The position numbers and the translations under genes were made by a program. A stretch of 64,000 bases of DNA, taken from positions 1-64,000 of the IMG/VR virus record IMGVR_UViG_3300022744_000022; one strand, given 5' to 3'. The notes under the pieces are model-generated. The model made no database searches. It was given only the letters and a program-made list of their open reading frames with translations, and was not told the DNA's origin. The stretch's first letter is position 1. Each line of letters opens with the position of its first letter. This document shows positions 42,261-64,000 of the stretch, one piece after another. Source of the DNA: a virus.

Positions 42261-44831
42261 ATGACTAAGAACTTCGGTCCCGCAGTTAGTGGTTACGATG
42301 TCCCGGAAGGTCGGGCTTGGGAGACGGTTGTCTTCGAGTCTGGGAAGCCGGTTCTCGACCGCGAGCTGAATCTCAGCCAGGACGTGGACGGGGGTTCGGC
42401 ACAGGCCGTCTTGCGGCGTTCCACGCCTTCGGGCTGGATCTCCGACGATTTCGTGGGGACCTCTAGTGCGGTGGGGGCTATCTTCTCGCCTTCGGCTGTA
42501 GCGGACACGCTTGAGATCCCCAATGCGTTGGTGGCTCACGTCAACGGTTGGCTACTCAAGATCCAACACACGAACATCACGGGCTCCAATCAAGTCACGT
42601 TGGGTCCAGGTCCTGTGGGGCTCGGGGCACAGCGTACCGACATGGTTGTGCTTGAGGTCTGGCGTCGCCTGATCTCTGCTGCCCCGAGCACCGTGGGCAA
42701 GTCGGCTACGGCGCGTATCTGGCAGCAAGGTAACGTAGCGACCGACCCCGCCAATGACTTGGTGCTGAACTACCCGGATGACCTTCTGGACACGAACGTT
42801 GGCGCAGAGACGACCAAGCGAGTTCAGATCCAATACCGGCTTCGGTGCATTCAGAACGTCAACGTCATCGCGTTTCCCTATGGGCTCAACGACCCGGCAG
42901 TTGTGGCGAACTCCGTGCCTCCGAGTGCAGCTTTTCCGGACGGCACTGCCACGGTTTTCCCCTACGTGAACCAGTCGGCCTCGGGGGATCCGGGCCTCTG
43001 GATCGCCGGTGACGGTAACCCGGCCAACACGCTCGGAACCGTCGATGGGTACATGTACTGCATCCCGCTCTTGGCTGTGTTTCGTCGCAACCAAACGGGC
43101 TTTGACCGTCGGCTCAATCAGAACGGTGGCGTAGCTTCGCCCGGCCCCTCGGACCGCCCGGATGGCCTCTTTCAAGACATCATCGTGGCTGAGGACATCT
43201 TGGATCTTCGGTCGGGTGTATCGCCCTCGGGTTGGTCCCTTCCGGAGCTGCTTGAGAAGAACGTCAATTTCCTGCTCGACAACACGTTGCGCACGGAGAT
43301 CACCGATACCTCACCGGACGGCGGCGGCTGCCGTGGCACCACTGTGTTCGTTGCGAACGAAGTTGGTGTGCTCCCAGGTAACGGCGTCACCACGGGTGAC
43401 ACAGGGGCGGGTCCGTTTTTTGGGCAGTTTGACTCGGTTCGTCGGCGCTTTTCGGATCGTTCGATCTTCGAGACCGTGACGGTGGTGGTTCCGGCTCCTG
43501 GTGGTGGTTGGCTGCCTGGTTCGGTGGTCACCATAGATCCCACGGCACTCGCGCCCTACCCTTACCCAGCGTTCAACTGGTCAGCCTATGCACCAGCCGA
43601 TGTTCGCTTTCTCGATGTGCTGCGCGCTCAGTACGTGGGGGCTGCACCCCCTCTCAAGACTCACGATGCCTTGAATGACATCGATTCGATCGAGAACTTG
43701 GGGGCGGGACCTATCCTGCCTCTGGTCATCACCATGGACACCCCGTCGGGCGGCGTCACAACAGAGCCCCTGCATGTGACCCTAGTGATCGGGTACCCGA
43801 CTGGCGTTGGGTTGGCCACGACTCCAGTGGCGGACTACGGAGCCAATAGCTTCGCGTTCACGACTGCTCCGCCGTCCGCGTTGCTGCCCACCTCTTTCAG
43901 TGCCGTGGCGAACCAGGCTTTTGATTACGCACACCGTGAAGTCCAGCTTGAGTACACGACGGTTTCGATTTCGTTTGCGGGTTCTGCGGACACAAGCGGG
44001 CCCACCACAACGCTCTACTTGCCCGAGCGGGCACAGACCGTAACTTCGATCCTGATCAACGCGGTCCCGGTATTCGGTTCCACATTGGATGTGACAGGTC
44101 GGATCATCACGTTGGCGGCCCCCACGGCACCTGGCGATGACTTTGCGGTCACCTACACGGCTGTGCGTCCGATGCCCCAGGCCAACGTGCAGATGAATGT
44201 GTACTACCGGACCGCTGCCCCGCAGACAGCCCGCAACGCCCTTCTGACCGGCAGTCTGACGGTCGTGCCCAAGGTCACGAGCCCCTTGATGTACGCGCTC
44301 ACGACGGGCTCTGGGTCGCAAGACGAGGGGTATCCGCTGCCCTACGCTTACGTGCAATCCGGCGGCATTTTCCCGAGCAACCTGGCGACGTACTCGGGAG
44401 AATCGGAGCTGTCGGGTCGTGCGGAGATCTCGGTCGCGGATTTCAACGCGGATACCGGCTTGTTGAAGCTCCCGGTCTATGTGCCGATGGTTGCCAACCC
44501 TGAGTCCTTGGTGTTCACCCGGGGTTTGGGTGACGTGGACGTTGAGGGTCGAACGTACTTCAAGACGGTTCCACCCGGGTACGTGCCCAACGCCTACTCG
44601 CAGGACTTGAGCAATTCGGATCGTCACAAGGACATCTACCCGCTTTTAGCGGAGTTGGCGGCGGACGGTCCCCTGGGTTTCAAGGGGCAGCTCGTTCTCA
44701 TCCTACTCATTCGATATGCCGCCTTTGATGAAACCAACGGCGTCTATTTCGATGCTGACTTGAACGCCAACACGACGACTGCAAGCGTCTTCCGCATCAA
44801 GGGCAACTTGCTCAGCAAGAGAGCTTCGTAA
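42261..44831 (+). CDS. Large virion protein, paralogue of the 54590 gene product (856 aa)
   Basis: The start is supported by GAGGG at 6 nt. The N-terminal 330 residues align by eye with those of the 54590-58936 product: MTKNFGPAVSG/MTSNFGPGVSR, GKPVLDRELNL/GKPPTDSALNL, VLRRSTPSGW/VLRGMPSGF, QRVQLQYRIR-type (KRVQIQYRLRC), DPGLWIAGDG/DPGLWRAGDG, LGTVDGYMYCIPL/LGTVDGYTYAIPI and FRRN. Both are therefore derived from one ancestor. The C-terminal part is strand-rich. A cell-surface-binding or baseplate-attached role is inferred from neighbours. Its stop and the start of the next gene overlap (TAATG). Confidence 0.65.
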   Translation: MTKNFGPAVSGYDVPEGRAWETVVFESGKPVLDRELNLSQDVDGGSAQAVLRRSTPSGWISDDFVGTSSAVGAIFSPSAVADTLEIPNALVAHVNGWLLKIQHTNITGSNQVTLGPGPVGLGAQRTDMVVLEVWRRLISAAPSTVGKSATARIWQQGNVATDPANDLVLNYPDDLLDTNVGAETTKRVQIQYRLRCIQNVNVIAFPYGLNDPAVVANSVPPSAAFPDGTATVFPYVNQSASGDPGLWIAGDGNPANTLGTVDGYMYCIPLLAVFRRNQTGFDRRLNQNGGVASPGPSDRPDGLFQDIIVAEDILDLRSGVSPSGWSLPELLEKNVNFLLDNTLRTEITDTSPDGGGCRGTTVFVANEVGVLPGNGVTTGDTGAGPFFGQFDSVRRRFSDRSIFETVTVVVPAPGGGWLPGSVVTIDPTALAPYPYPAFNWSAYAPADVRFLDVLRAQYVGAAPPLKTHDALNDIDSIENLGAGPILPLVITMDTPSGGVTTEPLHVTLVIGYPTGVGLATTPVADYGANSFAFTTAPPSALLPTSFSAVANQAFDYAHREVQLEYTTVSISFAGSADTSGPTTTLYLPERAQTVTSILINAVPVFGSTLDVTGRIITLAAPTAPGDDFAVTYTAVRPMPQANVQMNVYYRTAAPQTARNALLTGSLTVVPKVTSPLMYALTTGSGSQDEGYPLPYAYVQSGGIFPSNLATYSGESELSGRAEISVADFNADTGLLKLPVYVPMVANPESLVFTRGLGDVDVEGRTYFKTVPPGYVPNAYSQDLSNSDRHKDIYPLLAELAADGPLGFKGQLVLILLIRYAAFDETNGVYFDADLNANTTTASVFRIKGNLLSKRAS

Positions 44832-47800
44832 TGCCATCTACAAGAGACCCCGTAGCAGTTGTTCAGCCCGGTCCTGGTCGTCTACCGGCCAATACGGTTC
44901 CGGCCAACGCTTTGATCTTCCCGCCCGGCGGGGGGTCGAGTGCTGCCTTGACGGCGCACATCACGGACCCCGTGGGTGCTCATGCTGCTACCGCGATCTC
45001 GACCACGGCGGGTCCTGCGTGGCTCGATGGTAACCCGAACGCTGCGATCACGGCACAAGCTCGTATCGATGAGATCATCGCTGATCTCATCGCAAATCAG
45101 GGCTCAAACCGTACGGGCCAACCGGGCTTTGCCGGTAACACCTGGAACGTTGCAGCCGGGGCTCTCTCGACAGCGCTCACGGAACTCTTTGAGAGTGCCA
45201 ATGCTCGTCCTGCTTGGGTTCTTGATGCGAACCCGGCAGCAAAGGGTGACTTCGTTGGGCCCAACGCTTTGATCAGTGCGGTGGCTGCTGGCTTCTATCT
45301 GACGGAGCGCCCCACGTTGTTCTTGCGCCCAGGTACCTACAACTGGACCGATCCATCCGCCACTGCGCTTGATGCTGTTACGATCATTGGCGGGAACAAC
45401 GTCACCATTCAGAATCTCGCAGGCAACATGCGCTGTGGTATTCTGACCCGAATCTCTAATGTTCAGATCCAGTTGTCGGGTAACCTCGTGTTCGGCGGGG
45501 CGGGCTTCTGTGAACTACGGAACGTCAATCTACTCGTAGGGGGTGAGGTTCAGGTCAACCCCTCTAGTGTCTTGAACTCTTTTGAGCACGTGTACGGGAA
45601 CTCGCCGCAGTTCTTCAAAGTCGAAGCTCCGCGAACCATGATTCGCGACTACTCGAACTGTCAGGTTCGGCTCCTTCCAACGGCTACGGATTGCGTGGTG
45701 GGCACGGGTTCTGTAGTGGCCGCAGGCCTCAAGTACAACAACCTCCCGGCTCTTTCAGTTGAAAGCGCGCGTAACAGCATCCAAAGCGTGGCGCTATCCG
45801 GCAACCTTATTGCGGGTATGCTCGCAAACTGGGTTGAGATTTCTGGAGACAGCAACACTGTCTCGCAGCTCTCCTTGTTGAATGTGCCTGCGGCGGCGGG
45901 TGGTAATAACGCGATTTGGGTGTCGGGCCACAATAACACCCTAGACGCGGTATCGCTCTCAACGATGAGCGGCTACATCTTCCCGTTGTTCCAGGTGGGT
46001 GGTGGTGTCTCAACGGCAAGCGGTAACGTTGTAACGAACCTGAAACTAGACGCGGTTTCAGGGGCACTCGACGATATCATTCGCTTGGACGGTACTAGTA
46101 ATTCGATTGACGGAATTGAGATCGCCACTGTCACAACCCCAGCGGCGAACCAGCATGCGCTGTTGGTTGTGGGTACCTCGAATAAGGCGACCCAGGTTCG
46201 CTGCACCGCCTTCACAAGCTTCAATGGCGCTCTGGTCAAGATGTCCGGAGTCAACGGTGTGGTGGAAGGCGTCACTGCCTCGTCGATGACGACCCCCGCT
46301 GCGAACTTCTCGGCGGTGGATATCTCTGGGGAAGGCTGCACCGTACGTGACGTGCGGGTGCAGGGGCTCACGTCTCTGCCGTCAACCTCAACGCTATTCA
46401 ACGTGGGCAGTCTTTGTGAAGACTGCCGCCTTGAGAACGTACTGATCTCGTCTTCGATCACCCCCTCTGGCAAGTACCTGGTGCTGGCCGGGGAAGCGAA
46501 CGTCGTAAAAGACTTCAAGGTGTCTTCGCTCGACATCATGCAGGTTGGTTTTGAGTTGATCGCTATGTACGGCGTCAACTGCCAGCTCAGCGGCGTGCAG
46601 ATCGATTCATTCTCGAACAACGCCGGGGCCACCGCTGCGTTCATGACCCTCAACGGTCAGAACATGATGGTCGAAGGTGTGTTCTTCTCAGGCCTGGGGA
46701 CTGCTGCAAGTCTCACTCTGCCTTTGGTGCGTTTGACCGCAAACTCCTCGGGGACTTTGCGTAACGTGCGAGCGGATGGTGGCACGTCTGTGCTGAGGAC
46801 TGCGGAGTTCTTGACCATCGCTCCTGCGGTAACGGTTGGACAATGGTCAATCGAAGACTGCTACGCAGACATGACCGACAATTCTTCCAACGCCATCACG
46901 ATGGTGGGGGCGTCGGCATTTTTCATGGCCATCAAGGACTCTACTTTTAGAGCCCGTGGTGATGGGGCGGTAGGGTCTAGCGCCACGGTCTTCATGCAAG
47001 ACATGGGGTTCGTGGAGTTCCGAAACGTCTATATTGAAGCTACTGAGGGGCATGCCACAGCTTTCCCCAACTGTGCAGTCACCCTGGATAAGGTCGCGAT
47101 CAGTGGCGGTAACGGTGCCCCCAATGCAGGTCGGCAGTTGTTCCACGGGTCTGGTTACGCTGTGACTAACATGGCCGGTACGACAACCAGCCTACCGTTA
47201 GTGTTGCGGGACGTGGTTTTTTCTGTGGGTACGTCAAATGTTAACACTCTGAGTTTGGGTGATCCCACCCTCTTTTTTGGCGGGCAGGGTTCAGCAGCGC
47301 TGTCCAACCACGGGCCTATTGAGGCGACCGGGTTGCAGGTCATGTCAGGGGGTCTCTCGAACTGGAATCGTAGCTCTATCGTTGCTGTTGATCTGGCTTC
47401 TGTTGCTGCGGGTACGGCACCGAGCGCGTTCCAGAACGTGACGATCAATCTGGGCAATCTCAGTTGGGTGGCCTCTGGCACCCACACAGGGGCGTCCACG
47501 GGCAACATCACTGCCTACGCTTTTCCGAACCAGACGATTACTGGGTTGACGGGGATGACCGCTTCCATGGTGGGGCGCTATTTGACCGTCAGCGGGGCGG
47601 CTACGGCGGGTAACAACGGTCAGTTCCTGATCAATAGCTTCACCAATGCTACGACTGTTGTGGTGACGAACAACTCAGGTTCGGGCTCGGACGCCAATGA
47701 CGGCGCTCTTGCGTGGTCTGTAGCTGGATCTCCTTTCCCAGACTCCGCCCCAGCCTTCTTGGGTTCGGCTGCCGCAGTCTTGGATGTTGAAGGTCCTAAC

Positions 47801-49330
47801 GACGCGGGAGATCCAAACCCTGCTTACACAGCTTTCCGTGGCGTCTCCATTCTCAACGTGATTAATGGTGCGATTGCCGATGAACGCAACATTGTGCGGT
47901 TGAAGGGCTGTGCAATTGACGGTCTTCTCGTTGAAGGCCCGTCTGTGGCCACGGGTGCTGGAACGTTTACAATGCCTGTGGTCAATGCTGTGGCGAGTAG
48001 CGTTCAGCACCTCGATATGTACCCTACTACGCAGTCCCTGCGGTTAGGGCCCTCCACAGCCCACGTGCAAGGCGGATTAACGTACTTCCGAGACGGCCTT
48101 TTTCGTAACCCGCGTTTCGGTAACGTGCCTTGGGCGTATTTGCGGGGCTACTTCGCAGTCTTTGACAACTTCAACATTCTGATCGAGTCCTCAGTGGATG
48201 TTGGGGGTGCGGTTGTTGACCTCTTCGGGTACAGCAAGTTCAATAACGGTACGTTGTCTAACGCTTCTTCTCTGATTCCCTACGGTGTCAGTCTTGGTGG
48301 CTTTGGTGGCAATGAGTGCCTCAATAATCGCTTGACCTCAACTGTCACTGTGTCCACTTATTGGCCGGTGTTGGTTGCTGGCGCAGGGAGCACAGGCCGC
48401 AACCGGGTCAGCGGCAACTTCCTGGACAACACCGGATCGCCTACCGGGCAGTACACAGACACGGGTTGGTCGGGAATCGTTGTCTTGGACTCAGATGACA
48501 ATGTGATTACGGACAACCGTATTCACATGTTGGACAACGCCGATCCGTTGGCCGGACACATCGCAGTCATTGGCGGCAACCTAAACGTCGTCAACAGTAA
48601 TGTGATCCACAACGAGCGTTTCCTTTCCGATTCAGATGGCTCGATAACCCCTCCGTTTTTCTCCCCCAACGTGATCTTTAGTATCACGGGACAATTCCCG
48701 AACAACGGTTTGGTGGGTAAGACTATCACAATCACGGGGGCGGCCACTGCGGCAAACAACGGTACATTCCCGATCACATCACGAGCCACCTCGCAGGTCG
48801 TTTACACGAACGCAGCGGCTGTCGTGCCCGACGCTAATAACGGGAGCATTACGTGGGCGCTTAATGACGGGTTCGCTCGCATTAAGTTTACAGCAGGTGG
48901 CGTGGATGCACGATACTGTGCCGCTACAGGCAACACCTTACGTGCCTCTAACCGAGGTCAGGCGGGAGCGGAAATCGTTATAGACGAGGACGACTGCACG
49001 GCCACAGGGAACGTACTGCTCAATGGTTCTACCGCTAGTGGTGCGGTGCTTTGGACTGACTTCAACGGTACAAGTGCCGATATCCTTGCCCCCTCGATCA
49101 CTGGCTTCCTGTGTGAGCTAAGTGGTGCGTCGGGCTTCACCTCAGAAGATGTCGGGGCTACTGTTTATATCGAGAACTCTATCGGAAATAACAACGGCAC
49201 TCACCTCATCATGGCAGTGCTCGATTCTACGACCGTGCAGCTCTACAACGGTAACGCAGGGGTCTTCTCAGCAGACACCAACATGAGTTGGGTGCGTACT
49301 AAGGGTTCCGGTACCAACGTTACGAGGTAA
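44831..49330 (+). CDS. Beta-helix tailspike-like protein (1499 aa)
   Basis: The first 60 residues contain TAHITDPVGAHAATAIS, a motif common in phage adhesin heads. Residues about 190-560 show short strands at regular intervals (about 35-40 aa), for example GDSNTVSQLSLLN, GHNNTLDAVSLST, GTSNSIDGIEIAT and GVNGVVEGVTASS, which is a right-handed parallel beta-helix pattern (pectate-lyase-like). Three class B modules lie near 47503, 48664 and 49096. Between them is further beta-helix-like sequence. Such proteins bind or degrade surface polysaccharide in many phages. I did not identify catalytic residues, so an enzyme is possible but unproven. The ATG overlaps the stop of the previous gene. Confidence 0.72.
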   Translation: MPSTRDPVAVVQPGPGRLPANTVPANALIFPPGGGSSAALTAHITDPVGAHAATAISTTAGPAWLDGNPNAAITAQARIDEIIADLIANQGSNRTGQPGFAGNTWNVAAGALSTALTELFESANARPAWVLDANPAAKGDFVGPNALISAVAAGFYLTERPTLFLRPGTYNWTDPSATALDAVTIIGGNNVTIQNLAGNMRCGILTRISNVQIQLSGNLVFGGAGFCELRNVNLLVGGEVQVNPSSVLNSFEHVYGNSPQFFKVEAPRTMIRDYSNCQVRLLPTATDCVVGTGSVVAAGLKYNNLPALSVESARNSIQSVALSGNLIAGMLANWVEISGDSNTVSQLSLLNVPAAAGGNNAIWVSGHNNTLDAVSLSTMSGYIFPLFQVGGGVSTASGNVVTNLKLDAVSGALDDIIRLDGTSNSIDGIEIATVTTPAANQHALLVVGTSNKATQVRCTAFTSFNGALVKMSGVNGVVEGVTASSMTTPAANFSAVDISGEGCTVRDVRVQGLTSLPSTSTLFNVGSLCEDCRLENVLISSSITPSGKYLVLAGEANVVKDFKVSSLDIMQVGFELIAMYGVNCQLSGVQIDSFSNNAGATAAFMTLNGQNMMVEGVFFSGLGTAASLTLPLVRLTANSSGTLRNVRADGGTSVLRTAEFLTIAPAVTVGQWSIEDCYADMTDNSSNAITMVGASAFFMAIKDSTFRARGDGAVGSSATVFMQDMGFVEFRNVYIEATEGHATAFPNCAVTLDKVAISGGNGAPNAGRQLFHGSGYAVTNMAGTTTSLPLVLRDVVFSVGTSNVNTLSLGDPTLFFGGQGSAALSNHGPIEATGLQVMSGGLSNWNRSSIVAVDLASVAAGTAPSAFQNVTINLGNLSWVASGTHTGASTGNITAYAFPNQTITGLTGMTASMVGRYLTVSGAATAGNNGQFLINSFTNATTVVVTNNSGSGSDANDGALAWSVAGSPFPDSAPAFLGSAAAVLDVEGPNDAGDPNPAYTAFRGVSILNVINGAIADERNIVRLKGCAIDGLLVEGPSVATGAGTFTMPVVNAVASSVQHLDMYPTTQSLRLGPSTAHVQGGLTYFRDGLFRNPRFGNVPWAYLRGYFAVFDNFNILIESSVDVGGAVVDLFGYSKFNNGTLSNASSLIPYGVSLGGFGGNECLNNRLTSTVTVSTYWPVLVAGAGSTGRNRVSGNFLDNTGSPTGQYTDTGWSGIVVLDSDDNVITDNRIHMLDNADPLAGHIAVIGGNLNVVNSNVIHNERFLSDSDGSITPPFFSPNVIFSITGQFPNNGLVGKTITITGAATAANNGTFPITSRATSQVVYTNAAAVVPDANNGSITWALNDGFARIKFTAGGVDARYCAATGNTLRASNRGQAGAEIVIDEDDCTATGNVLLNGSTASGAVLWTDFNGTSADILAPSITGFLCELSGASGFTSEDVGATVYIENSIGNNNGTHLIMAVLDSTTVQLYNGNAGVFSADTNMSWVRTKGSGTNVTR

Positions 49331-49759: not shown

Positions 49760-50377
49760 ATGTCCACCCACTACCTCATCGATCCTTTCACGACCAATGG
49801 AGACATCATCGATGTCTCCACCTCCTTGTTGGGCCAAGTTGACGCCACAGGTGCCACGGTCATCCGGGTTCCCGATGGGGTCGCGATCAACAACTCGCCC
49901 TCAAACCTTGCGGCGTTGCTGACCGAGAAGTATGACAGCCTCTTGGCGAGCTACGCAGGGTTCACCGAGATCGTGGCTGACGCTTGTATGGACCAACTCA
50001 CGGTGGACCTAGCGTTCAGTGAGAAGATCCAGGCGGGTGCGGGGTTCGTCCATCACGGGGTGCAGCCCTCAGGGGCCTTGGTGTCCACGCTCGTGCCGCT
50101 GGCCTTTGCCCCAACTCAATGCGTGCTGGTCTGGGAAGAGTTCTCGTTCACGGACCAGGACGACAAGACGGGACGAATGCAGCGGACCTTCGTTGAGGAG
50201 TCCGGGAACAACTGCTCTTGTGTCGTGAGCTTCGACGGGGGCGGGACGTTCAACTTTGCAGGCAATGGGCAGGTGCTAAACATCCCGGTGCCGAACCAAG
50301 GTAGCTCGTTCGCAATCGGCCTCACAAACCTCTCTGGATCCAGGATCCGCATTGGGTCCTGGGCACTGATCTACTGA
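49760..50377 (+). CDS. Unknown 205-aa strand-rich protein before speD
   Basis: The ATG lies 2 nt after the previous stop. The protein has a helical N-terminal half (SNLAALLTEKYDSLLASYAG) and a strand-rich C-terminal half (CVLVWEEFSFTD; SCVVSFDGGGTFNFAG; FAIGLTNLSGSRIRIGSW). The pattern suggests a small virion protein such as a fibre tip or decoration unit. It is the last structural-type gene before the accessory block. No close family is recognised. Confidence 0.55.
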   Translation: MSTHYLIDPFTTNGDIIDVSTSLLGQVDATGATVIRVPDGVAINNSPSNLAALLTEKYDSLLASYAGFTEIVADACMDQLTVDLAFSEKIQAGAGFVHHGVQPSGALVSTLVPLAFAPTQCVLVWEEFSFTDQDDKTGRMQRTFVEESGNNCSCVVSFDGGGTFNFAGNGQVLNIPVPNQGSSFAIGLTNLSGSRIRIGSWALIY

Positions 50378-50434
50378 GCAAGTTTTTATAGACTCTCTGC
50401 GGGTACTGCAACATTGCTTGGGAGGGTCTGTGAA

Positions 50435-50905
50435 TTGAACACGCACGGTCGGCATCTTCTCGTTGAGTACCTGGGTTGCGACCCCGAGGCGCTCAATAAC
50501 GTGGACCAGATTCAAGCGTTGATGGAAATGGCAGCGATAGCGGCCAAGACCAACATCGTTTTCTCGAAGTTCAAACCCTTCGTCCCGCAAGGCGTCTCAG
50601 GGGTTGTGGTGGTCGAGGAATCGCATCTGTCCATCCATACCTGGCCTGAGTGTGGCTACGCCGCTGTGGACTTCTACACGTGTGGTGAAGGGGATCCGAA
50701 CGAAGCCCATGAGGTGCTTCGGGGTGGCCTTCAAGCTGCAAGCTTCGAGATGCTCTACGTTGAACGCGGTCGTGGTATCGAGGGTCATGGCCCCTGCATG
50801 AATCTCCAGAGCCACACCCGGGATACGTTGCCCCCGCCTACCGTGTCGGTTGAGATGACTGTCGAGTACCCGCTCGGACCGCAGAACGCTCGGGCTGACG
50901 CCTAA
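50435..50905 (+). CDS. speD: S-adenosylmethionine decarboxylase proenzyme family (AdoMetDC, SpeD)
   Basis: The frame opens at TTG 50414, but I prefer the TTG at 50435 because GGAGGG (50421-50426) precedes it by 8 nt. The product is 156 aa, a normal size for bacterial class 1B AdoMetDC. The signature PQGVSG, VVEESHLSIHTWPE and DFYTCG is present. With this start the residues are Ser63 (pyruvoyl-forming, after Glu62), His68 and Cys83, the same numbers as in the Thermotoga maritima enzyme. The family makes decarboxylated AdoMet for spermidine synthesis; some relatives decarboxylate arginine or ornithine instead. No spermidine synthase is seen in the window. It sits directly after virion genes, with the lipoprotein gene convergent 3 nt away. 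Confidence 0.88.
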   Translation: MNTHGRHLLVEYLGCDPEALNNVDQIQALMEMAAIAAKTNIVFSKFKPFVPQGVSGVVVVEESHLSIHTWPECGYAAVDFYTCGEGDPNEAHEVLRGGLQAASFEMLYVERGRGIEGHGPCMNLQSHTRDTLPPPTVSVEMTVEYPLGPQNARADA

Positions 50906-50908
50906 CGT

Positions 50909-53260
50909 TCACGGGTTCACCGCAATCGCGTGGATTGAGGTGCCCACCCAGTACAGGCACTCGTTCACAACCTGCATGGAGTTGAACGAGTAGGAACCCG
51001 AGCCAGTGAAGGTGTAGAGCGGAGTCACAGTGCCGCCGTTGACTGAGACCTTACGGACCTGCTTAGCGTTAGCATCCGCGAAGTAAACCGAGGTACCGTC
51101 GGTCGCGGTGGTGCTTGAGAACCCGTTGCCTGTCCCCACGAGCTTCTGCGCAGAACCGCCTGCCAAGGGCTTCTTCCACACGCCGCTGTTGGCAGGCTCG
51201 ATCCCAACGTAGAGGATGTAGTAGAGGTTGGTGCCATCCGTGGAGAGCGCTGTCATGGTGGTGGCAGCCGTGGGGAAGCTTGCCGAGACATAGCTCTCAA
51301 ACACCGTGGGGGTTCCGCCGTGGATCGGAACCCTAACGATGGGCTTTTGATTGACAGCGCCGTAGTTGATGTAGGTGGCGTAAAGGTACTGGCCATCCGT
51401 GACGAACGGTGCTCCGTACGTGTAAGAACCACCGAGCACGATGTCCGTAGTGGTGGTTGCCCGCCCCCAGTACGAGATGGTCGCGTTATCTTGGCGGCGA
51501 AAGAAGATGTCGGTTGCCGTGACGAGTAAGGCCCGGCCGTTGGCATTTCCGTAGGTGGTCAGGGTCCCGCCGCCGATGGGCTTCGAGAAAACCCCGGGGA
51601 ATGCTGGGATTTGAGCGTCACCGTCCGTGGTCCAGAACACATTGGAGCCCTGCACCGCGACACCACCGATGAACCCGGGCTGATTGGTGGCCAGCGAGAT
51701 GGTTGCACCGCCTGTGCGGGGCTGTTGATTCAGATTTCCGCCTTGGCTCCAGTAGATATTGTTGGCATCCACCGCGTAGTTGTTGGCCAGGATCCCCGAG
51801 TCGTAGACTCCACAAGTGCCTGACCCGCAGGCACCGCCGCAGCAACTGTGGCCGCACTGACCGCAGTTCGCTGAGTCCGAGGTGAGGTCAACCTCACAGC
51901 CGTTGGCCGGGTTGTTGTCGCAGTCATCGTGGTCAAGCTGACAGTCAAACGTGCAGGCACCTGCTTGGCAGTACGAGTCAGCACCCTGCACTGAGGGGCA
52001 GCCTTGAGCCGCTTGCCACTGACCGTTGCTTCCGCAGGTCTGGATCTGTTGCCCCGAGCACTGCTGAGTCCCGGGTTCGCAAACTCCCGTGCAAGCGCCC
52101 GCACTACACACGTACTGACAAGCCGAACCCGAGACCCACTGACCCGAACCATTGCAAGTTCGGGGGGTGTCCCCTTGGCAGCTCGTAGAATTCGGCGTGC
52201 AGCTTCCCGAGCAAACCCCTTCGCCACCGCACACGAAGCTACAAGCCGTCTCCGAGACCCACTGGCCCTGGGCATTGCAGCTCCGAGGCGTGAGCCCCTG
52301 GCAGTCCCGGTCCCCAGGGGTGCAGACACCTGAGCAGGTTCCGGCCCCGCATACGTACTGACAAGCCGAACCCGAGGTCCAGCTACCGCTGGAGTCGCAA
52401 GTCTGAGGAACCAGACCCGAGCACTGCTTGGCACTGGGGCTACACGACCCCGAGCACACCCCCTCTCCGCCGCAAACGTAAGGGCAAGCCGTTTCCGTGA
52501 CCCACTGAGCGGTCGCGTCACAGTGGCGAGGCACCAAGCCCGAGCAATCCCGGTCACCAGGGGTACAGACACCCGAGCACACGCCTTCACCGCCGCAGTA
52601 CAGCGAGCAGGCGGTTTCCTGTACCCACTGACCCGAGCTATCGCAGCTACGGGGGGTCAAGCCTTGGCAGTCCCGGTCGCCCGGTACGCATGCGCCCGTG
52701 CAGTCACCGGCACTGCAAACGAACGAGCAAGCGAGCCCTTGGACCCACTGGCCATTTGAGTTGCAGCTTCTCGGGTTAAGCCCCTGGCAATCCTTGTCTC
52801 CTGGATCGCAGACGCCCACGCATGCACCGGCTTGGCACACGTGGTCGCACACTTCCTGAGCTTCCCACTGCCCTGACACACAGGCGAACCTTTGAAGGCC
52901 CTCACACTTAGTACCGGGGCCTGAACCGGGGCACTCCGGGATCGTGGCATCCGATCCTGAGTCCGTGCCCGAGTCTACGGGGACGGTAGCATCGACCATC
53001 GCGGCGTCTTGACTACCCGCGTCCGTGATGCTGCCTGCGTCCACGCTGGCGGTCATGGCGTCCGCTTGGCTGCCGTCCTGGGGCGCTGCGTCCGAGACCG
53101 GCAGGCTGCCATCCTGAGGGCTCATCCCGTCCACGACGATTGAGTTACCGCCGTCCGTGAAGACACCCGGCATCGAATCCGTGCGGTCCACGATAGGGCT
53201 TCTATCCATCGAACACGCGGCCAAAAGCACGGCGAACACAACAACGAATTGCTTTTCCAT
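50909..53260 (-). CDS. Cys-rich repeat lipoprotein with beta-propeller-like C-terminus (783 aa)
   Basis: The N-terminus MEKQFVVVFAVLLAACS is a lipoprotein signal with lipobox LAAC (Cys16). Residues about 20-110 are a Ser/Asp/Ala-rich stalk. Eight repeats of about 40 aa follow (about residues 110-440), each with a pattern C-PGD-C-G-L-P-C-GQW-C-C-C (for example CVPGDRDCQGL), so probably disulphide-bonded. The last 300 residues have six tyrosine/aspartate-rich repeats (VDANNIYWSQGG; VQGSNVFWTTDG; TDGTNLYYILYV) resembling a beta-propeller. The architecture is common in secreted myxobacterial-type proteins and very unusual among phage tail genes. It opposes its neighbours, so it has its own transcription. 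Role unknown: receptor masking, exclusion of other phages or host fitness are guesses. Confidence 0.82.
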   Translation of the reverse strand: MEKQFVVVFAVLLAACSMDRSPIVDRTDSMPGVFTDGGNSIVVDGMSPQDGSLPVSDAAPQDGSQADAMTASVDAGSITDAGSQDAAMVDATVPVDSGTDSGSDATIPECPGSGPGTKCEGLQRFACVSGQWEAQEVCDHVCQAGACVGVCDPGDKDCQGLNPRSCNSNGQWVQGLACSFVCSAGDCTGACVPGDRDCQGLTPRSCDSSGQWVQETACSLYCGGEGVCSGVCTPGDRDCSGLVPRHCDATAQWVTETACPYVCGGEGVCSGSCSPSAKQCSGLVPQTCDSSGSWTSGSACQYVCGAGTCSGVCTPGDRDCQGLTPRSCNAQGQWVSETACSFVCGGEGVCSGSCTPNSTSCQGDTPRTCNGSGQWVSGSACQYVCSAGACTGVCEPGTQQCSGQQIQTCGSNGQWQAAQGCPSVQGADSYCQAGACTFDCQLDHDDCDNNPANGCEVDLTSDSANCGQCGHSCCGGACGSGTCGVYDSGILANNYAVDANNIYWSQGGNLNQQPRTGGATISLATNQPGFIGGVAVQGSNVFWTTDGDAQIPAFPGVFSKPIGGGTLTTYGNANGRALLVTATDIFFRRQDNATISYWGRATTTTDIVLGGSYTYGAPFVTDGQYLYATYINYGAVNQKPIVRVPIHGGTPTVFESYVSASFPTAATTMTALSTDGTNLYYILYVGIEPANSGVWKKPLAGGSAQKLVGTGNGFSSTTATDGTSVYFADANAKQVRKVSVNGGTVTPLYTFTGSGSYSFNSMQVVNECLYWVGTSIHAIAVNP
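51930..52940 (-). repeat. Eight tandem Cys-rich protein repeats in the lipoprotein gene
   Basis: Within the lipoprotein gene, eight coding units of roughly 120 bp are arrayed head to tail, each encoding a CxPG-type repeat with six conserved cysteines or so. Units 3, 4 and 6 are nearly identical in part (PGDRDC, QWV/ETAC, CGGEGVC), which suggests recent amplification or recombination within the gene. Confidence 0.75.
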
Positions 53261-53384: not shown

Positions 53385-53654
53385 ATGCCGAAAGCCGAAA
53401 CTACCGGGGGACTCTTGAAGGGTTTTCGCTTGTCAGCGGGACTCACTCAAAAGGAGCTTGCCCTCAAGCTGGGGGTCAAGGCCGCCCACCTGTCCGAAGT
53501 CGAGAGTGGCCTGCGTAGGGTCAGTGTAGGGAGGGCGGTGCGCTGGGCTCAACTACTTGAGAGACCTGAACTGGAGTTCGTTCGCCTAGCTCTCCAGGAA
53601 GAACTGGACGCTGTTGGGGTCAGGATGACGGTGGAGGTCAAGGATGGGCGCTGA
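53385..53654 (+). CDS. XRE-family helix-turn-helix regulator (89 aa)
   Basis: Residues about 10-65 form a Cro/C1-type HTH: LKGFRLSAGLTQKELALKLG with the recognition helix HLSEVESGLRRVSV. This is close to the classic Q-x3-LA-x6-S-x2-E-G pattern. The family represses or activates nearby promoters, often its own. Start: ATG 53385 has AAGGG abutting it; TTG 53415, with a better-spaced GGGGGA, is an alternative that would trim 10 residues. The gene is divergent from the lipoprotein gene and overlaps the GIY-YIG gene by 11 nt, so it may regulate both. Confidence 0.82.
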   Translation: MPKAETTGGLLKGFRLSAGLTQKELALKLGVKAAHLSEVESGLRRVSVGRAVRWAQLLERPELEFVRLALQEELDAVGVRMTVEVKDGR

Positions 53655-54531: not shown

Positions 54532-54547
54532 GCCCGCCCATTTGAAC

Positions 54548-54561
54548 GGGGCCGTAGCCCC
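54548..54561 (+). terminator. Short GC-rich hairpin after the endonuclease gene
   Basis: GGGGC CGTA GCCCC forms a 5-bp stem after the GIY-YIG stop, without a T-tract. It sits between ATG 54542 and ATG 54590, which argues against the earlier start of the next gene. Confidence 0.35.
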
Positions 54562-54589
54562 CTCGAAATCGGATCAGAGGGCAATAGCG

Positions 54590-57500
54590 ATGACTTCAAA
54601 CTTCGGGCCGGGCGTGTCGCGTGTTTTGGAAGCTGCGGGCACGCAGTACACAACGGCGATTTGGCAGCAGGGTAAGCCGCCGACGGATTCTGCGCTGAAT
54701 TTGATGCAGCAGTTGGCGACTGGCGCTGTGCAGTCCGCCGTGCTCCGGGGGATGCCGAGCGGGTTCTTGGGTAACGAGTCCAACCCACAGGCGTCTTTTT
54801 TAACTGATAGCCGCTGGTCGAATTTCTTCCAGTTCGGGCCTCAGCGTACCGGCGAGCAACAGGCCATCATGTGGGCCAACGTAGCAGGTTTCCTTATACC
54901 CGTGACGGGCACTCGAACCGGAACCCCGCCTGGAAGCCCCGACAACGTTCGGACCACGAACATCATCGCGCTGGATCCTCCGCCCGCGAACTCAGGTGAC
55001 TTCCGAATCGACTTTGCCTTCCTGGAAGTCTGGCAAGCTCGTGTTCAACCCAACCCCTCGACCACGAACAAGCCCGCAGCGAGTGCCATCTACAAATACG
55101 GCAACGTAGAAGGTGGCGCGAGCTTCTTGGCTGACGATTTGATCGATCCGAGTCTTGGATTCGAGACTGAGCAGCGCGTCCAGCTCCAGTACCGAATCCG
55201 TGTCGTGAAGGGCCTCGTGGGGCTCACCTCGAACCCCGATGGCTTCGACCCAGTGGTGGTCAAGGCGCAGGGTGCTGCCGCTGCTCCGACCGCCTACACG
55301 TTCACGAACATGCGTCAGGCTTTGGGCGACCCGGGCTTGTGGCGTGCCGGTGATGGGACTCAGAATGCCCTTGGGACCGTGGACGGCTACACGTACGCGA
55401 TTCCGATCTCGGCCATCTTCCGCCGCAACTCGGTGGTGTGGGGTGGTAACCCCAGTCAGAACCTCAACGGTGGTTTCAACCGTAACCCCACGGCAGTGGA
55501 TCGCCTTGGGATCAAGACGTTTTCTACGGTTCCTACGCTGGCCGCCGATCTCTCGGCTGCTGCCACGTCGGCAACCCTAGTATCGGCCACCAACTTGCCG
55601 ATGCCCTTGACTCCCGCGACTCCCGTCACGATTCAAATCGGTGACGAGATCATGACCTATAGTTCGATCACGGGCACTACCGTGAACGGCTTGGTCCGGG
55701 GTCAAAATGGCACGCTCGCAGAGGCGCACAAATCGGGCCTCACCATCAAGGTTTTGTCGGGTCGTCCTGATGGCCTGTACTCGGATCAGATTGCGAACTC
55801 CGACATCCTTGACCTGCGGCACCTAGTTAATCCGAACGGGATGGACTTCGACGCGCTGCTCAAGTCGAACCTAGACAAGCTTCTGCGTGGGCAACTTCGC
55901 GCCAACTGGAAGCGTTCCGGCGGCGGCCCCCAGGGCAGCTTCGTCCACTACCAGGATGCCATCCAGTCCGCTGCGGTTTCCTTGGGTGTCACGCAGCTCG
56001 ATGCTCCCGACAACATTCGCATGGTGTTCTCGGATGCCGCTACGATTCAGCCCGTAGAGTTGGTGGCTCAACCCTTCGGCAGCCCCTACGCCGGTCCTGG
56101 TCAAGCCATCAACGCCACTTGGTCCTTGAGTCTTACGGTCAACACAACTCTTCAAACCGTGGGACAACAGTTCACGGCTGGGGACACGATCGTAATCCCT
56201 GTGAACCAGCTCAAGAACGGGCTGCAAGCCGGTGCCACGGATCAGGTTCGTTGGCTCAACGACGGTGTGGTGGGTGCCATCCAGTTGCGCCTGGAAGGCG
56301 AGACGGGCGATCTTCCTTCAAGCATGTACACGGTAACTCCAGCGGTCCCGGGGCCCAATGAGGATCTCACGATTACGTTGGGTGGCACCTTCCCAGCGCA
56401 GCTTTCAACAACAGCCTCTCCGCGTTTGCTGCACATCCGAGCCCACATCGTCTACGGTGCAGGTCGGGGCCTTTCGCGTCGGCCGGACTCGCTGCATTCG
56501 ATCAGTTACCTGAATCCTTCGGCGGATCTGTTGGTTCAGCAGGCTGGTGTCCCCTTGAGCAATAAGGGTTCGAGAGTCTCGTGGGCTCCTTTGTGGAGCA
56601 AGTACCGCAGCAGCGTCTTCAACAACGCTCTGCCGTCTACCGCTGAGATGTACGCGGATCTCGGAAGCAAGACCGTGATCGCCACGCCTTTCCGGCGGGT
56701 CAACTTCACGCAGGGCTTGCTCACGATCGACGGTGACGCAGCTAACCCTCACCCCGACGCGATCGTTGGTGCCCCGACTTCGGGTACAATCGCTGCCGTA
56801 AATTCCCCGACGATCAACGTAGCTTCCACGCTCAACACTGCCGTTGGAAACGCCCTGGTGATCGCCAGCGGTCCGGGAACTGGGCGCTACACCATCACAG
56901 GTCTTGTCGCTAACACCTCCATCACGGTGGATCGCCCGATTCGGGCTAACGCTGTGGCGGTCACCTTCACCATCCATACGGCACAAGGCTGCATGCCCGC
57001 GTTCACCAAGACGGGTGCCGCTAAGTGGGGCACTACAGATCCGTTAGGCATGTTCTGCGGTCAAGGTGCCGGTGGCCCCGCGTACAACAGCATCTACGTA
57101 ACTCTGCCGAGACACTTGGTGCCTGGTTGGGGCGAGCTTCACGTCCCTCTGCTCCACACGGATACGGCAGCTTTCGCCCAAGGCCTCAACTACATTACGA
57201 ACAGTGGGACAGGTTCAAGCTTTTCAGACTCAGACAAGAATTTCGTAAACTACAACCCAAATACGGGTTACACGTATGCAGGGTTCTCAACTCTGAATCT
57301 GAACACCTCCCTTCCCTCCGTTTACAACAACGCCTTCAACTATGTGGGCAACAATTACGCGGGGATGCGCTTCTTCACGGATACCCGGGGACTTGGCCGT
57401 CAAGGTCTGGAGTTGCCTCCTTTCTATGGTGTTGCTCGTTTGTTCGCTGTCTATGAAGTGGCGGACTACCTTGGGGCAGGCGGGTCTGGGTTTGATCCCA

Positions 57501-58936
57501 CAACCCGCATCCCGACTGGCGGTGGGGCAACGAATCTGCTTCGTCAAGCGATGCCTCAAGGATCGGGACCATCCTTCTGGGTTGAGATCGACTCCGACGG
57601 GGACTCCACGTTCATCCTGAACGCCAACGCGATCGACATCACCAAGTCTCCGAACCCGATCGCAAACTTCGGGGCGGGTAACTACGTGATCGAGGCTTCT
57701 GTGTTCGGGTTTGATCGCGGCACTTTCGACCTTGGGTCGGAAGCCCGTCTGGTTTTGACTAACCCTTTTGGTATCGGTGGTAACCCCGGGACTGGGGATA
57801 GTTGGACCAACGTAGGCACGGGGTCTGTGAGCCTAGTGACCCGTTCCAACAACATCAACAAGCTGGTCGCAGGGCCTTCAGCGATCATCCCTGGCCCGGC
57901 CGAACCGTCGGATCAGATCCTCGTCAACTACTCCCGCACTGTCTACCAGGGCGATGCGTGGGGCAGTCAGACCAACTACGCAGACATCCCGTACGCCCCG
58001 GGTCCCCTGACCTCGGGAACCGCGTACCAGATCGATTCCACGGATCTGGATCCCAACGCTTTGACCCGTCCCAACCAGAAGGTTTTGGAGGTGCTCGCCA
58101 GCACGAGCTTCTCCACGGACCTCGGAACGGGCCGTTACTCGGCTGACGCCACTACCACGACCCTGGACTTCAAGGACGTGGGGTACGAGGATCCGACGGT
58201 CTATCCGCCGACCTCGGGTATTGCCGATCGTCCCAAGGTGTTGCCCAACAACTACTCGGCTCAGGATGTGACGAACATCGGAACCGAGTACCTGGGCTGC
58301 ACGGAGCGCTTGCCGTTGGGTGCCTTGTTCCGCGACAAGGACTTCCGAGGGCAGGTCTTCACGTACCTCCCGTCCCCGTTGGTCTACTCGGATCAGGTTG
58401 GTGCAGGTCCCTCTACAAGCCTTGCTCCGAGTCACTCGGGTGATCAGGACGAAGTGTTGCTCACCACCGCATCTTCGGGCGTGGGCTCGCCGGGCGACCT
58501 TCTGGTTCATGTAGATGGTGAGCAGGGCAACTACAACTTGCTCACCAACTTCCGTGTGACTCGTGGCGGCTCTGTGTTCACGGCCTCCGGGGCGAACCCC
58601 GGTGGAACCGTGGCGTTGCAGAACCAGGCGTCGTTGGCTCAAACCAACCACGTCAACGTGCTGCAAGGCCGGGCCATGCTGGTCCGTAACACGGTCACGA
58701 ACGTGGGGGCTACGGAAGTCTCAGCGGGTGATGAGCTGATGCTGCTCATCCTGACGACGGTCCAGCGTCCTGCGGTTGGTACGGTGGACCCCTCAGTGGT
58801 TCTCATCGGCACCAACGGTACCGGCGAAGGCTACTCGGCCGCCGACCTCTACCGTATCGAGGGTCACCCCTTGGTCCGTAACAACGTTCGAGTAAACCTG
58901 GATCCGGCGACCATCCCGCTGGCCAAGAGGGGTTGA
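54590..58936 (+). CDS. Large virion protein, paralogue of the 42261 gene product (1448 aa)
   Basis: The frame is open from ATG 54542, but I choose ATG 54590 because AGAGGG lies about 8 nt upstream and the product then begins MTSNFGPGVSR, matching the paralogue's MTKNFGPAVSG. The N-terminal third corresponds to the N-terminal 330 residues of 42261-44831. It then carries a module with ADLSAAATSATLVSATNLP and IQIGDEIMTYSSITG (near 55540-55760), a class B module (near 56780) and further strand-rich domains. Extra length (about 600 residues) compared with the paralogue indicates domain gain. It is probably a second fibre or baseplate-attached surface protein. No enzymatic motif was seen. Confidence 0.65.
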   Translation: MTSNFGPGVSRVLEAAGTQYTTAIWQQGKPPTDSALNLMQQLATGAVQSAVLRGMPSGFLGNESNPQASFLTDSRWSNFFQFGPQRTGEQQAIMWANVAGFLIPVTGTRTGTPPGSPDNVRTTNIIALDPPPANSGDFRIDFAFLEVWQARVQPNPSTTNKPAASAIYKYGNVEGGASFLADDLIDPSLGFETEQRVQLQYRIRVVKGLVGLTSNPDGFDPVVVKAQGAAAAPTAYTFTNMRQALGDPGLWRAGDGTQNALGTVDGYTYAIPISAIFRRNSVVWGGNPSQNLNGGFNRNPTAVDRLGIKTFSTVPTLAADLSAAATSATLVSATNLPMPLTPATPVTIQIGDEIMTYSSITGTTVNGLVRGQNGTLAEAHKSGLTIKVLSGRPDGLYSDQIANSDILDLRHLVNPNGMDFDALLKSNLDKLLRGQLRANWKRSGGGPQGSFVHYQDAIQSAAVSLGVTQLDAPDNIRMVFSDAATIQPVELVAQPFGSPYAGPGQAINATWSLSLTVNTTLQTVGQQFTAGDTIVIPVNQLKNGLQAGATDQVRWLNDGVVGAIQLRLEGETGDLPSSMYTVTPAVPGPNEDLTITLGGTFPAQLSTTASPRLLHIRAHIVYGAGRGLSRRPDSLHSISYLNPSADLLVQQAGVPLSNKGSRVSWAPLWSKYRSSVFNNALPSTAEMYADLGSKTVIATPFRRVNFTQGLLTIDGDAANPHPDAIVGAPTSGTIAAVNSPTINVASTLNTAVGNALVIASGPGTGRYTITGLVANTSITVDRPIRANAVAVTFTIHTAQGCMPAFTKTGAAKWGTTDPLGMFCGQGAGGPAYNSIYVTLPRHLVPGWGELHVPLLHTDTAAFAQGLNYITNSGTGSSFSDSDKNFVNYNPNTGYTYAGFSTLNLNTSLPSVYNNAFNYVGNNYAGMRFFTDTRGLGRQGLELPPFYGVARLFAVYEVADYLGAGGSGFDPTTRIPTGGGATNLLRQAMPQGSGPSFWVEIDSDGDSTFILNANAIDITKSPNPIANFGAGNYVIEASVFGFDRGTFDLGSEARLVLTNPFGIGGNPGTGDSWTNVGTGSVSLVTRSNNINKLVAGPSAIIPGPAEPSDQILVNYSRTVYQGDAWGSQTNYADIPYAPGPLTSGTAYQIDSTDLDPNALTRPNQKVLEVLASTSFSTDLGTGRYSADATTTTLDFKDVGYEDPTVYPPTSGIADRPKVLPNNYSAQDVTNIGTEYLGCTERLPLGALFRDKDFRGQVFTYLPSPLVYSDQVGAGPSTSLAPSHSGDQDEVLLTTASSGVGSPGDLLVHVDGEQGNYNLLTNFRVTRGGSVFTASGANPGGTVALQNQASLAQTNHVNVLQGRAMLVRNTVTNVGATEVSAGDELMLLILTTVQRPAVGTVDPSVVLIGTNGTGEGYSAADLYRIEGHPLVRNNVRVNLDPATIPLAKRG

Positions 58937-62585: not shown

Positions 62586-62975
62586 ATGGACGGTATTGCG
62601 GAATTCATCAACACTAACGTACTCCCCCACTGGCCGTTCGTGGCTGCGATGGTGATCTTCATGATCATCGGCGAGGTCACGACGAAGAACATCTTCACGC
62701 GAGATGCGCACAAGACCAACAAGCCCGTGTGGCTGTTCTGGTGGGGCCGTAAGACTCTGGCGCTCCACCCAATCATCGCGGGTATGGTTCTCGGGCTCAT
62801 GTGGCGGAACCCCGAGGCAGGGGTGGATACGCTCGTGGAGTCCATGGCGTACTTTGCGATGGCGGGCGGCTTTTCAGTTTGGGCCTATGAATTTCTGAAA
62901 GGCATGGCCAAGAAGGAAGGGATCGACATCGATCTTCCTGGCGTTGACGACTCAACACCCCCTCCGGCGAACTGA
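62586..62975 (+). CDS. Holin candidate, small three-segment membrane protein (129 aa)
   Basis: The frame is open from 62565, but ATG 62586 follows GGGAGG (about 62574-62579) by 6 nt and is used. The product is hydrophobic in three places: WPFVAAMVIFMIIGEV, LALHPIIAGMVLGLMW and MAYFAMAGGFSVWAYEFL, then a charged, Pro-rich tail (DLPGVDDSTPPPAN). The size and layout fit a class I holin, which makes holes that start lysis. It leads a run of small envelope proteins to the window end. No endolysin gene is visible in the window, so the lysis call is probable, not certain. Confidence 0.6.
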   Translation: MDGIAEFINTNVLPHWPFVAAMVIFMIIGEVTTKNIFTRDAHKTNKPVWLFWWGRKTLALHPIIAGMVLGLMWRNPEAGVDTLVESMAYFAMAGGFSVWAYEFLKGMAKKEGIDIDLPGVDDSTPPPAN

Positions 62976-62976
62976 G

Positions 62977-63552
62977 ATGCCCCAAGCGACCCCTCCCCCG
63001 CCAATGCCTCCGGAACCCACGGCTCCCCCCGAGCCTGGGTTCTGGCAGGTTGTGGGTGCCAAGCTAGCGGCATTTGCCAAGTGGGCAGCTCGGGTGCTTG
63101 TGGCCCCGGGGGTCGCGTTGCTCCTGATCGTGGGGGCCGTGATGCTGGTGGCCCTAGGGCTCAAGAACGTTCAGATCGGCGGCCTGCTCGGGATGCTCTT
63201 TGGTAAGAAAAAGCCCGAGCACACGGCGATCGACACCGCCAACTCGGTGCCTAAGGACCGAGTAGACGACAAGGGCAAGATCATTCCCATCGGTGAGCCC
63301 GACTCGAAGGGGATGACGCAAGCGGTCGTGGTGCCGATCCAGAACCCAGGTATTCTCTCCAATCCTGATCACGTTGTGTTCACGCCGCCGGGCGAGACCA
63401 AGCCGATTGAGATTCAGCTACCTGACGGCGTGAAGGCCAAGGATGTTGAGAAGGTGATCGTCGTGAAGCCCACGAAATTCGTTGTGACGGTGAAGGACAA
63501 GTCTGGGATCACCGGCAAGCATGTCGATGACCTCTTGAAGAAGTACGGCTGA
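62977..63552 (+). CDS. Membrane-anchored protein after the holin candidate (191 aa)
   Basis: The start is ATG 62977, one base after the preceding stop; the upstream in-frame ATG at 62944 is inside the previous gene. A Pro-rich N-terminus (TPPPPMPPEPTAPPEPG) leads into one long membrane segment (about residues 40-65: VLVAPGVALLLIVGAVMLVALGL). The rest, about 120 residues, is soluble and strand-rich (VVVPIQNPG; DHVVFTPPGE; VEKVIVVKPTKFVVTVKDKSG). It looks like an envelope-linked protein with a single anchor, in a lysis-type cassette; a spanin component is possible but no supporting motif was seen. Confidence 0.6.
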   Translation: MPQATPPPPMPPEPTAPPEPGFWQVVGAKLAAFAKWAARVLVAPGVALLLIVGAVMLVALGLKNVQIGGLLGMLFGKKKPEHTAIDTANSVPKDRVDDKGKIIPIGEPDSKGMTQAVVVPIQNPGILSNPDHVVFTPPGETKPIEIQLPDGVKAKDVEKVIVVKPTKFVVTVKDKSGITGKHVDDLLKKYG

Positions 63553-63563
63553 TCGGGAGGCCC

Positions 63564-64000
63564 ATGATGCTGCACCTACTGCCTTGGTTGTTCCTGCTCC
63601 CGATGACGCCGATGCAGGCTGCGGGGCCAGATCAGGTCGTGGTGGTCGAGGAAGATCCGGCCCCCGCACAGCTCTGCCCTGAGGGCTTTATTTGCGTTCC
63701 GCCGGAGGACATGGCGGTGTTCGTTCAGCTCTTGCGGGACCAGAAGTGTCGGGCCGAGACAGAGCCTAAGATCATCGCTGACTCCGTGGTGATCATTGTG
63801 GACCGCCAGGGTCGGGTCTACGGATCAGGTACAGGACCCAAGCCCTACAAGCTGCACGTAGACTGGTGCAACTACCAGCTCGACGCCGAGTCCGAAATTC
63901 ATTTGGATGTGGCGCAACGAGTTGAGCCCACGTGGGGTTTTCGGCTGCGGGTCAAGGCCACCGCTGGTGTACTGGCGGTGGACGCCTTCACGGTCAACAA
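63564..64000 (+). CDS. Exported protein with signal peptide, 3' end cut by the window (145+ aa)
   Basis: ATG 63564 or 63567 follows GGGAGG by 3 or 6 nt; both give the same frame, which stays open to the last base. The N-terminus (MMLHLLPWLFLLPMTPMQAAG) is a signal peptide with cleavage likely after AQA/AAG-type residues. The mature part has three or more cysteines (QLCPEG, FICVPP, QKCRAE) and strands (KIIADSVVIIVDRQGRVYGSG). It is the last of a run of envelope proteins and may be secreted to the periplasm. The family is not recognised. Confidence 0.65.
   Translation, partial: MMLHLLPWLFLLPMTPMQAAGPDQVVVVEEDPAPAQLCPEGFICVPPEDMAVFVQLLRDQKCRAETEPKIIADSVVIIVDRQGRVYGSGTGPKPYKLHVDWCNYQLDAESEIHLDVAQRVEPTWGFRLRVKATAGVLAVDAFTVN

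Follow-up and report, generated by a model that had tools for sequence, protein, structure and literature searches.

Why would a phage keep, among its virion genes, a gene for an AdoMet decarboxylase (AdoMetDC), whose reaction commits a cell to spermidine synthesis, and on what does the enzyme act? The question arises from a 64,000-base stretch of viral DNA (the window; positions 1 to 64,000 of IMG/VR record IMGVR_UViG_3300022744_000022, called G000 here, which spans 208,486 bases in full). An initial annotation, made from the window alone, reported a complete SpeD with no speE visible and offered several roles for it: supplying decarboxylated AdoMet, altering host polyamines, depleting AdoMet, condensing phage DNA through polyamines, or decarboxylating arginine or ornithine after a change of substrate.

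The coordinates, strand and integrity reported for this gene (SpeD1) were right (Table 1). The open reading frame is complete, and its TTG is taken as the start because a strong Shine-Dalgarno-like sequence lies 8 nt upstream; a promoter scan around the gene found no promoter. SpeD1 matches the Pfam AdoMet_dc model over its full length (PF02675, model positions 1-107 of 107; E = 2.7e-34; 118.2 bits, cut-off 25), scores well above the cut-off of the NCBIfam class 1b AdoMetDC equivalog TIGR03330 (125.5 bits, cut-off 75.65) and matches PHROG 3125. The best solved relative is the AdoMetDC of T. maritima (1tlu; E = 1.5e-30; 53% identity over 109 aa).

Table 1. Features of the SpeD1 and SpeD2 loci. 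Positions are those of the window unless marked as record positions or given with another record.
Feature	Position	Strand	Basis
856-aa gene, syntenic upstream	42261..44831	+	synteny
1499-aa repetitive tail-region gene, syntenic upstream of the 205-aa gene	44831..49330	+	synteny
205-aa tail-module gene (tail205), directly upstream of SpeD1	49760..50377	+	five of six SpeD1 records
GGGAGGG, Shine-Dalgarno-like, 8 nt upstream of the TTG at 50435	50420..50426	+	sequence
SpeD1, proenzyme of a class 1b AdoMet decarboxylase (156 aa), from its TTG start (50435) to the end of the stop codon (50905)	50435..50905	+	Pfam PF02675, TIGR03330, 1tlu
Glu62-Ser63 (codons 50618-50620 and 50621-50623), predicted self-cleavage site; Ser63 to pyruvoyl	50618..50623	+	alignment to T. 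maritima; Ser63 role, PMC10407285
His68, processing and catalysis	50636..50638	+	alignment to T. maritima; PMC10407285
Cys83, processing and catalysis	50681..50683	+	alignment to T. maritima; PMC10407285
Putative lipoprotein (783 aa, Cys-rich), its gene convergent with SpeD1	50909..53260	-	homologues in L003, L118, L119, L120; weak in L125
GIY-YIG endonuclease gene, beside the lipoprotein gene	53644-54531	+	Pfam, 1.4e-07
1464-aa tail fibre-like protein, lineage marker	54542..58936	+	L118 homologue matches PHROG tail families; Tunturi_5 'tail fiber protein'
Conserved 202-aa gene upstream of the SpeD2 locus	62944..63552	+	synteny
Gene for a 213-aa protein, immediately upstream of SpeD2, continuing to record 64205	63564..64000	+	synteny
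SpeD2, AdoMet_dc homologue, 147 aa	record 64218-64661	+	Pfam search of the whole record
DnaJ gene after SpeD2	record 64669-65796		position
Short Rossmann proteins, phrog_15480	G128:C1:279256-279534 (L174); G129:C1:141128-141283 (L173)		weak spermidine-synthase similarity

SpeD1 matches the class 1b AdoMetDC family over its full length and is identical to the T. maritima protein (TM0655) at every residue checked, namely F49, V58, E62, S63, H68, T69, W70, P71, E72, A77 and C83; we take F49, W70 and E72 to have substrate-pocket roles in AdoMetDC. The class 1b pattern that the initial annotation had read (Glu62-Ser63, His68 and Cys83) falls exactly at the T. maritima numbers. S63, H68 and C83 are required for SpeD processing and catalysis (PMC10407285). 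Differences from TM0655 are that SpeD1 is phage-borne, has no adjacent speE and ends in a C-terminal tail of ~40 residues that is variable among relatives.

Ornithine-decarboxylating SpeDC proteins are distinguished from AdoMetDCs by Gln, Thr, Phe and Tyr residues (PMC10407285). When this published signature was applied, with alignment positions assigned in the present analysis, SpeD1 had none of the four diagnostic residues. A search for other phage copies found SpeD1 in five further phage records of the lineage; all six proteins keep Ser63, His68 and Cys83, and all six have the AdoMetDC state at Glu62, Trp70, Pro71, Glu72 and Phe49. The six form a single clade (support 100/100) on the AdoMetDC side with T. 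maritima. In three trees SpeD1 stood beside T. maritima, speH_2 of phage MaAM05 and, where these were included, acidobacterial SpeDs, grouping with characterised AdoMetDCs and apart from the known arginine- and ornithine-decarboxylating phage branches. Because the AdoMetDC-state residues are kept throughout and the trees agree, a shift of SpeD1 to arginine or ornithine is unlikely, and these two lines of evidence led us to rule out that candidate. By sequence SpeD1 is an intact class 1b AdoMetDC proenzyme, expected to self-cleave and to decarboxylate AdoMet.

The guess of an arginine or ornithine substrate fits a second gene instead. Searching the whole record with the Pfam model gave another AdoMet_dc match at record positions 64410-64604, within a gene (SpeD2) that begins 218 bases beyond the window end and ~13 kb from SpeD1. 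SpeD2 is above the Pfam cut-off (49.7 bits against 25) and below the TIGR03330 equivalog cut-off (46.5 against 75.65 bits; its relatives score 52-62). We assembled ten SpeD2s, nine of them phage proteins and the tenth encoded on a contig that was binned as Candidatus Sulfotelmatobacter and is perhaps itself viral. S63, H68, W70, P71 and C83 are present in all ten; position 62 is non-acidic in every case (Thr in six, Lys in four), and Leu72 and Val49 invariably replace Glu72 and Phe49. The window phage's own SpeD2 keeps S63, H68 and C83 and carries Thr62, Val49 and Leu72. The close relative from G004 (L016), modelled in place of the window-phage protein, adopts the AdoMetDC fold in a confident model (pLDDT 79; TM 0.81 to 1tlu). 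Where dS was unsaturated, the values indicated purifying selection (e.g. dN 0.33 and dS 1.40 for SpeD2 of the window phage against that of G004).

The ten SpeD2s form one clade (100/98), which in two trees sides with pelagiphage ADC-type and freshwater SpeDC-type proteins (98/96 and 93/83). A recent within-phage duplication of SpeD1 was considered as its origin and discarded, as a single clade of SpeD1 and SpeD2 was rejected (p-AU 0.011). Joining SpeD2 in one clade with the ADC-type group (p-AU 0.157) or with the ODC-type group (p-AU 0.19) was not rejected.

What, then, does SpeD2 decarboxylate? Compared with SpeDC ornithine decarboxylases, the window-phage protein has two of the four diagnostic residues, the equivalents of Gln58 (found in some SpeD2s only) and Thr62, along with a DVFSCK motif, whereas Phe69 and Tyr77 are absent, Trp70-Pro71 is kept and the clades are separate; the full SpeDC signature is thus lacking. 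SpeDA proteins are recognised by loss of a Pro conserved in AdoMetDCs together with a clade shared with known ADCs; SpeD2 keeps Pro71 and its Pro51 region is rearranged, the source leaving open which Pro is meant. With pelagiphage ADCs of the HTVC201P type SpeD2 shares Thr62 (in six of ten), Trp70 and, in several members, a small residue at 69, but it has Pro71 and Leu72 where these have Asp and Glu, and again the clades are separate. Given that Phe69 and Tyr77 are missing and Pro71 is retained, SpeD2 agrees in full with neither known substrate class. Among the proteins compared, phage ADC-type (pelagiphage) and ODC-signature proteins have Thr62 and phage AdoMetDC-active proteins have Glu or Asp62, the activities being those reported in PMC9992855 and the residues being read on the same phages or on relatives. 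Tree position alone does not fix the substrate, since the Sinorhizobium phage phiN3 protein, positioned among ODC-type proteins, is a real AdoMetDC (PMC9992855). From the clade position and the non-acidic residue at 62, as in ADC- and ODC-type proteins, we infer that SpeD2 most likely decarboxylates arginine or ornithine, yielding agmatine or putrescine. A bolder proposal, which we advance tentatively and think rather doubtful, is that SpeD2 represents a phage-enriched subfamily of pyruvoyl decarboxylases (V49, T/K62, W70-P71-L72) that does not act on AdoMet and does not use the known SpeDA and SpeDC pockets, having either a new substrate or a new arginine/ornithine route; huge phages would then retain it alongside a genuine AdoMetDC, the two enzymes together being a minimal means of taking over host polyamine synthesis. 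A residue set matching neither known class makes SpeD2 a good candidate for tracing substrate change in the family.

SpeD2 might instead have no substrate of its own and serve as a regulatory partner, tuning SpeD1 in a prozyme-like heteromer. Activation by a paralogue occurs in trypanosomatid AdoMetDC, whose heterodimer (5tvm) is among the structural matches of the SpeD2 model, and SpeD1 is always accompanied by SpeD2; even so, we consider this improbable, because Ser63, His68 and Cys83 persist in all ten SpeD2s whereas the prozyme is catalytically dead, and because SpeD2 occurs without SpeD1 in G004 and G005. Alternatively, the pair could deplete AdoMet, for example against host methylation, instead of making polyamines. 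SpeD1 by itself would consume AdoMet and the phages lack SpeE, but SpeD2 has lost AdoMetDC-type residues, and a second decarboxylase acting on something other than AdoMet would be pointless for depletion. Moreover, bacterial hosts commonly have SpeE, and we judge the depletion role very improbable.

Scans of viral contigs returned one close relative of SpeD1, in L003/G001 (323 kb, 74% identity), and L016 and L017 as the closest to SpeD2. To avoid selecting records by their SpeD genes, we sampled the lineage by a scan with the DnaJ-like gene beside SpeD2, giving contigs of 25 to 437 kb. SpeD1 and SpeD2 occur together in G000, G001, G127 (398 kb), G128 (416 kb), G129 (411 kb) and G131 (203 kb). 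SpeD2 was found without SpeD1 in G125 (116 kb, near the contig end), G004 (111 kb) and G005 (393 kb), and neither gene in G126, G130, G132, G133 (437 kb), G134, G135 and G136 (407 kb), these absences being soft because the records may be fragments. No lineage record searched had SpeD1 without SpeD2. This distribution bears on the simplest explanation, that only SpeD1 matters, as an ordinary phage AdoMetDC boosting host spermidine in the manner of cyanophages, with SpeD2 an accessory gene that shares the fold but is otherwise unrelated. Lone SpeDs are indeed common in phages, 130 phage records match SpeD, and AdoMetDC activity has been shown for the proteins of S-PM2, phiYS40, phiN3 and P2559s (PMC9992855). 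Against this stand the constant company of SpeD2 in the lineage records with SpeD1 and the pairing of SpeDs in other phages, and we think it unlikely that SpeD1 alone accounts for the locus.

The placement of SpeD1 inside a structural region, noted in the initial annotation, is borne out by the lineage. In five of the six SpeD1 records the gene directly follows the 205-aa tail-module gene, downstream of homologues of the 1499-aa and 856-aa genes, and this shared order indicates that the position is inherited and not accidental. Neither Pfam nor PHROG matches the 205-aa protein itself, so its tail label comes from its neighbourhood. SpeD2 immediately precedes the DnaJ gene and in most cases follows the 213-aa gene. 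For SpeD1 the exception is G001, where it adjoins SpeD2; in the other pair records the two are non-adjacent. An ancestral tandem, as G001 would suggest, was rejected: the placement of SpeD1 after the tail gene prevails in five of the six records and makes G001 the outlier, and the two genes of G001 group discordantly within the lineage, SpeD1 with that of the window phage and SpeD2 with that of G129. These groupings hint at a separate re-acquisition of SpeD1 in G001, or at recombination. A GIY-YIG gene lies at both SpeD loci, beside the lipoprotein gene near SpeD1 and, in L016, directly adjoining SpeD2, suggesting that homing endonucleases may shift genes around SpeD1 and SpeD2.

Other genes of the lineage deserve mention. 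The 783-aa putative lipoprotein has a lipobox (LLAAC) and many Cys-rich repeats, and is conserved in the lineage and unusual in a phage; it may resemble myxobacterial surface proteins. Helicase genes in L003 (15948-18812) and L016 (11653-14826) carry putative intein-like inserts in their translations. The SpeD2 relative on the contig binned as Candidatus Sulfotelmatobacter (Acidobacteriota) lies at L094 5986-6381 (48%; 17-kb contig), and the Acidobacteriota phage Tunturi_5 shares part of the tail fibre-like protein. Together these two observations weakly hint at hosts in or near Acidobacteriota.

The position of SpeD1 directly after a tail gene suggests, if weakly, that it may be expressed late with the tail genes, and late expression would suit a use of the polyamines in condensing virion DNA or in covalently modifying its bases; phage phiW-14 DNA carries putrescinylthymine as a base modification. 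No enzyme of the thymidylate-synthase family was found in G000, G001 or G005 (one is present in G004), however, and no DNA-modification gene was seen adjoining either SpeD, which leaves this use highly improbable. DNA condensation and AdoMet depletion, both raised by the initial annotation, are possible roles, nothing having been found in their favour; its suggestions of decarboxylated-AdoMet supply or altered host polyamines gain support from the sequence comparisons.

The lack of speE noted in the window extends to the whole 208,486-base record, and no spermidine synthase (SpeE) scored over the cut-off in G000, G001, G127, G128, G129, G131, G004 or G005. Weak spermidine-synthase matches in G128 and G129 were dismissed, as these proteins match phrog_15480 methyltransferases strongly. 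PLP-type Orn/Arg decarboxylases (Orn_Arg_deC_N) were absent from G000, G001, G004 and G005, and the arginase/agmatinase family from the seven records checked, so that an ADC-type SpeD2 would need host enzymes. All of these activities would have to come from the host.

Taken together, we favour with moderate confidence a model in which decarboxylated AdoMet comes from SpeD1 and putrescine or agmatine from SpeD2, both serving the host spermidine synthase. The SpeD1 proenzyme would cleave itself between Glu62 and Ser63, as its residues and phylogeny suggest, converting Ser63 to the pyruvoyl group, and the mature enzyme would turn AdoMet into decarboxylated AdoMet, a reaction already established in this family. 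The distant paralogue SpeD2 would process itself as well and convert arginine or ornithine into agmatine or putrescine. Both inputs of spermidine synthase would thereby come from the phage and SpeE itself from the host, so that infected cells would gain spermidine, or a related polyamine, while the phage programme runs. In the cells that they infect, these huge phages probably direct the two committed steps of polyamine synthesis. Phage AdoMetDCs and SpeD-derived phage arginine/ornithine decarboxylases were each known before. A phage lineage that retains the two committed decarboxylases while relying on its host to join their products would reveal where phage growth is limited.

How does this arrangement compare with known systems? 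Phages with a single SpeD are already on record (PMC9992855), and bacteria are known to pair SpeD with SpeDC or SpeDA (PMC10407285). In a 2023 survey of polyamine genes in viruses, just one phage had two or more of these enzymes, SpeD with SpeE (PMC9992855), and we found no account of phage SpeD pairs in the open-licence literature. SpeD1 belongs to the same family as the phage-encoded AdoMetDC of cyanophage S-PM2 and MaAM05 speH_2, but known phage AdoMetDCs usually stand alone, whereas G000 keeps a second, divergent SpeD. Precedents for pairing two SpeDs in phages come from two sources. In L049 (9989-10763) a protein with the SpeDC signature (Q, T, F, Y), and with Asp for the conserved His64, is followed in tandem by an AdoMetDC-like SpeD. 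Microcystis phage MaAM05 (MW495066.1 246315-249093; L015 7965-10743) carries speH_2, speH_1, speE and speB one after another, which apparently make up a complete route from arginine to spermidine, provided that speH_1 encodes an arginine decarboxylase; in speH_1, Glu62 is present and Trp70, Pro71 and Glu72 are absent. MaAM05 and G000 are alike in that each is a large phage genome with a pair of SpeD paralogues. Unlike G000, MaAM05 also encodes SpeE and an agmatinase, holds all of these genes in one cluster, and has in speH_1 a second SpeD that falls outside the SpeD2 clade.
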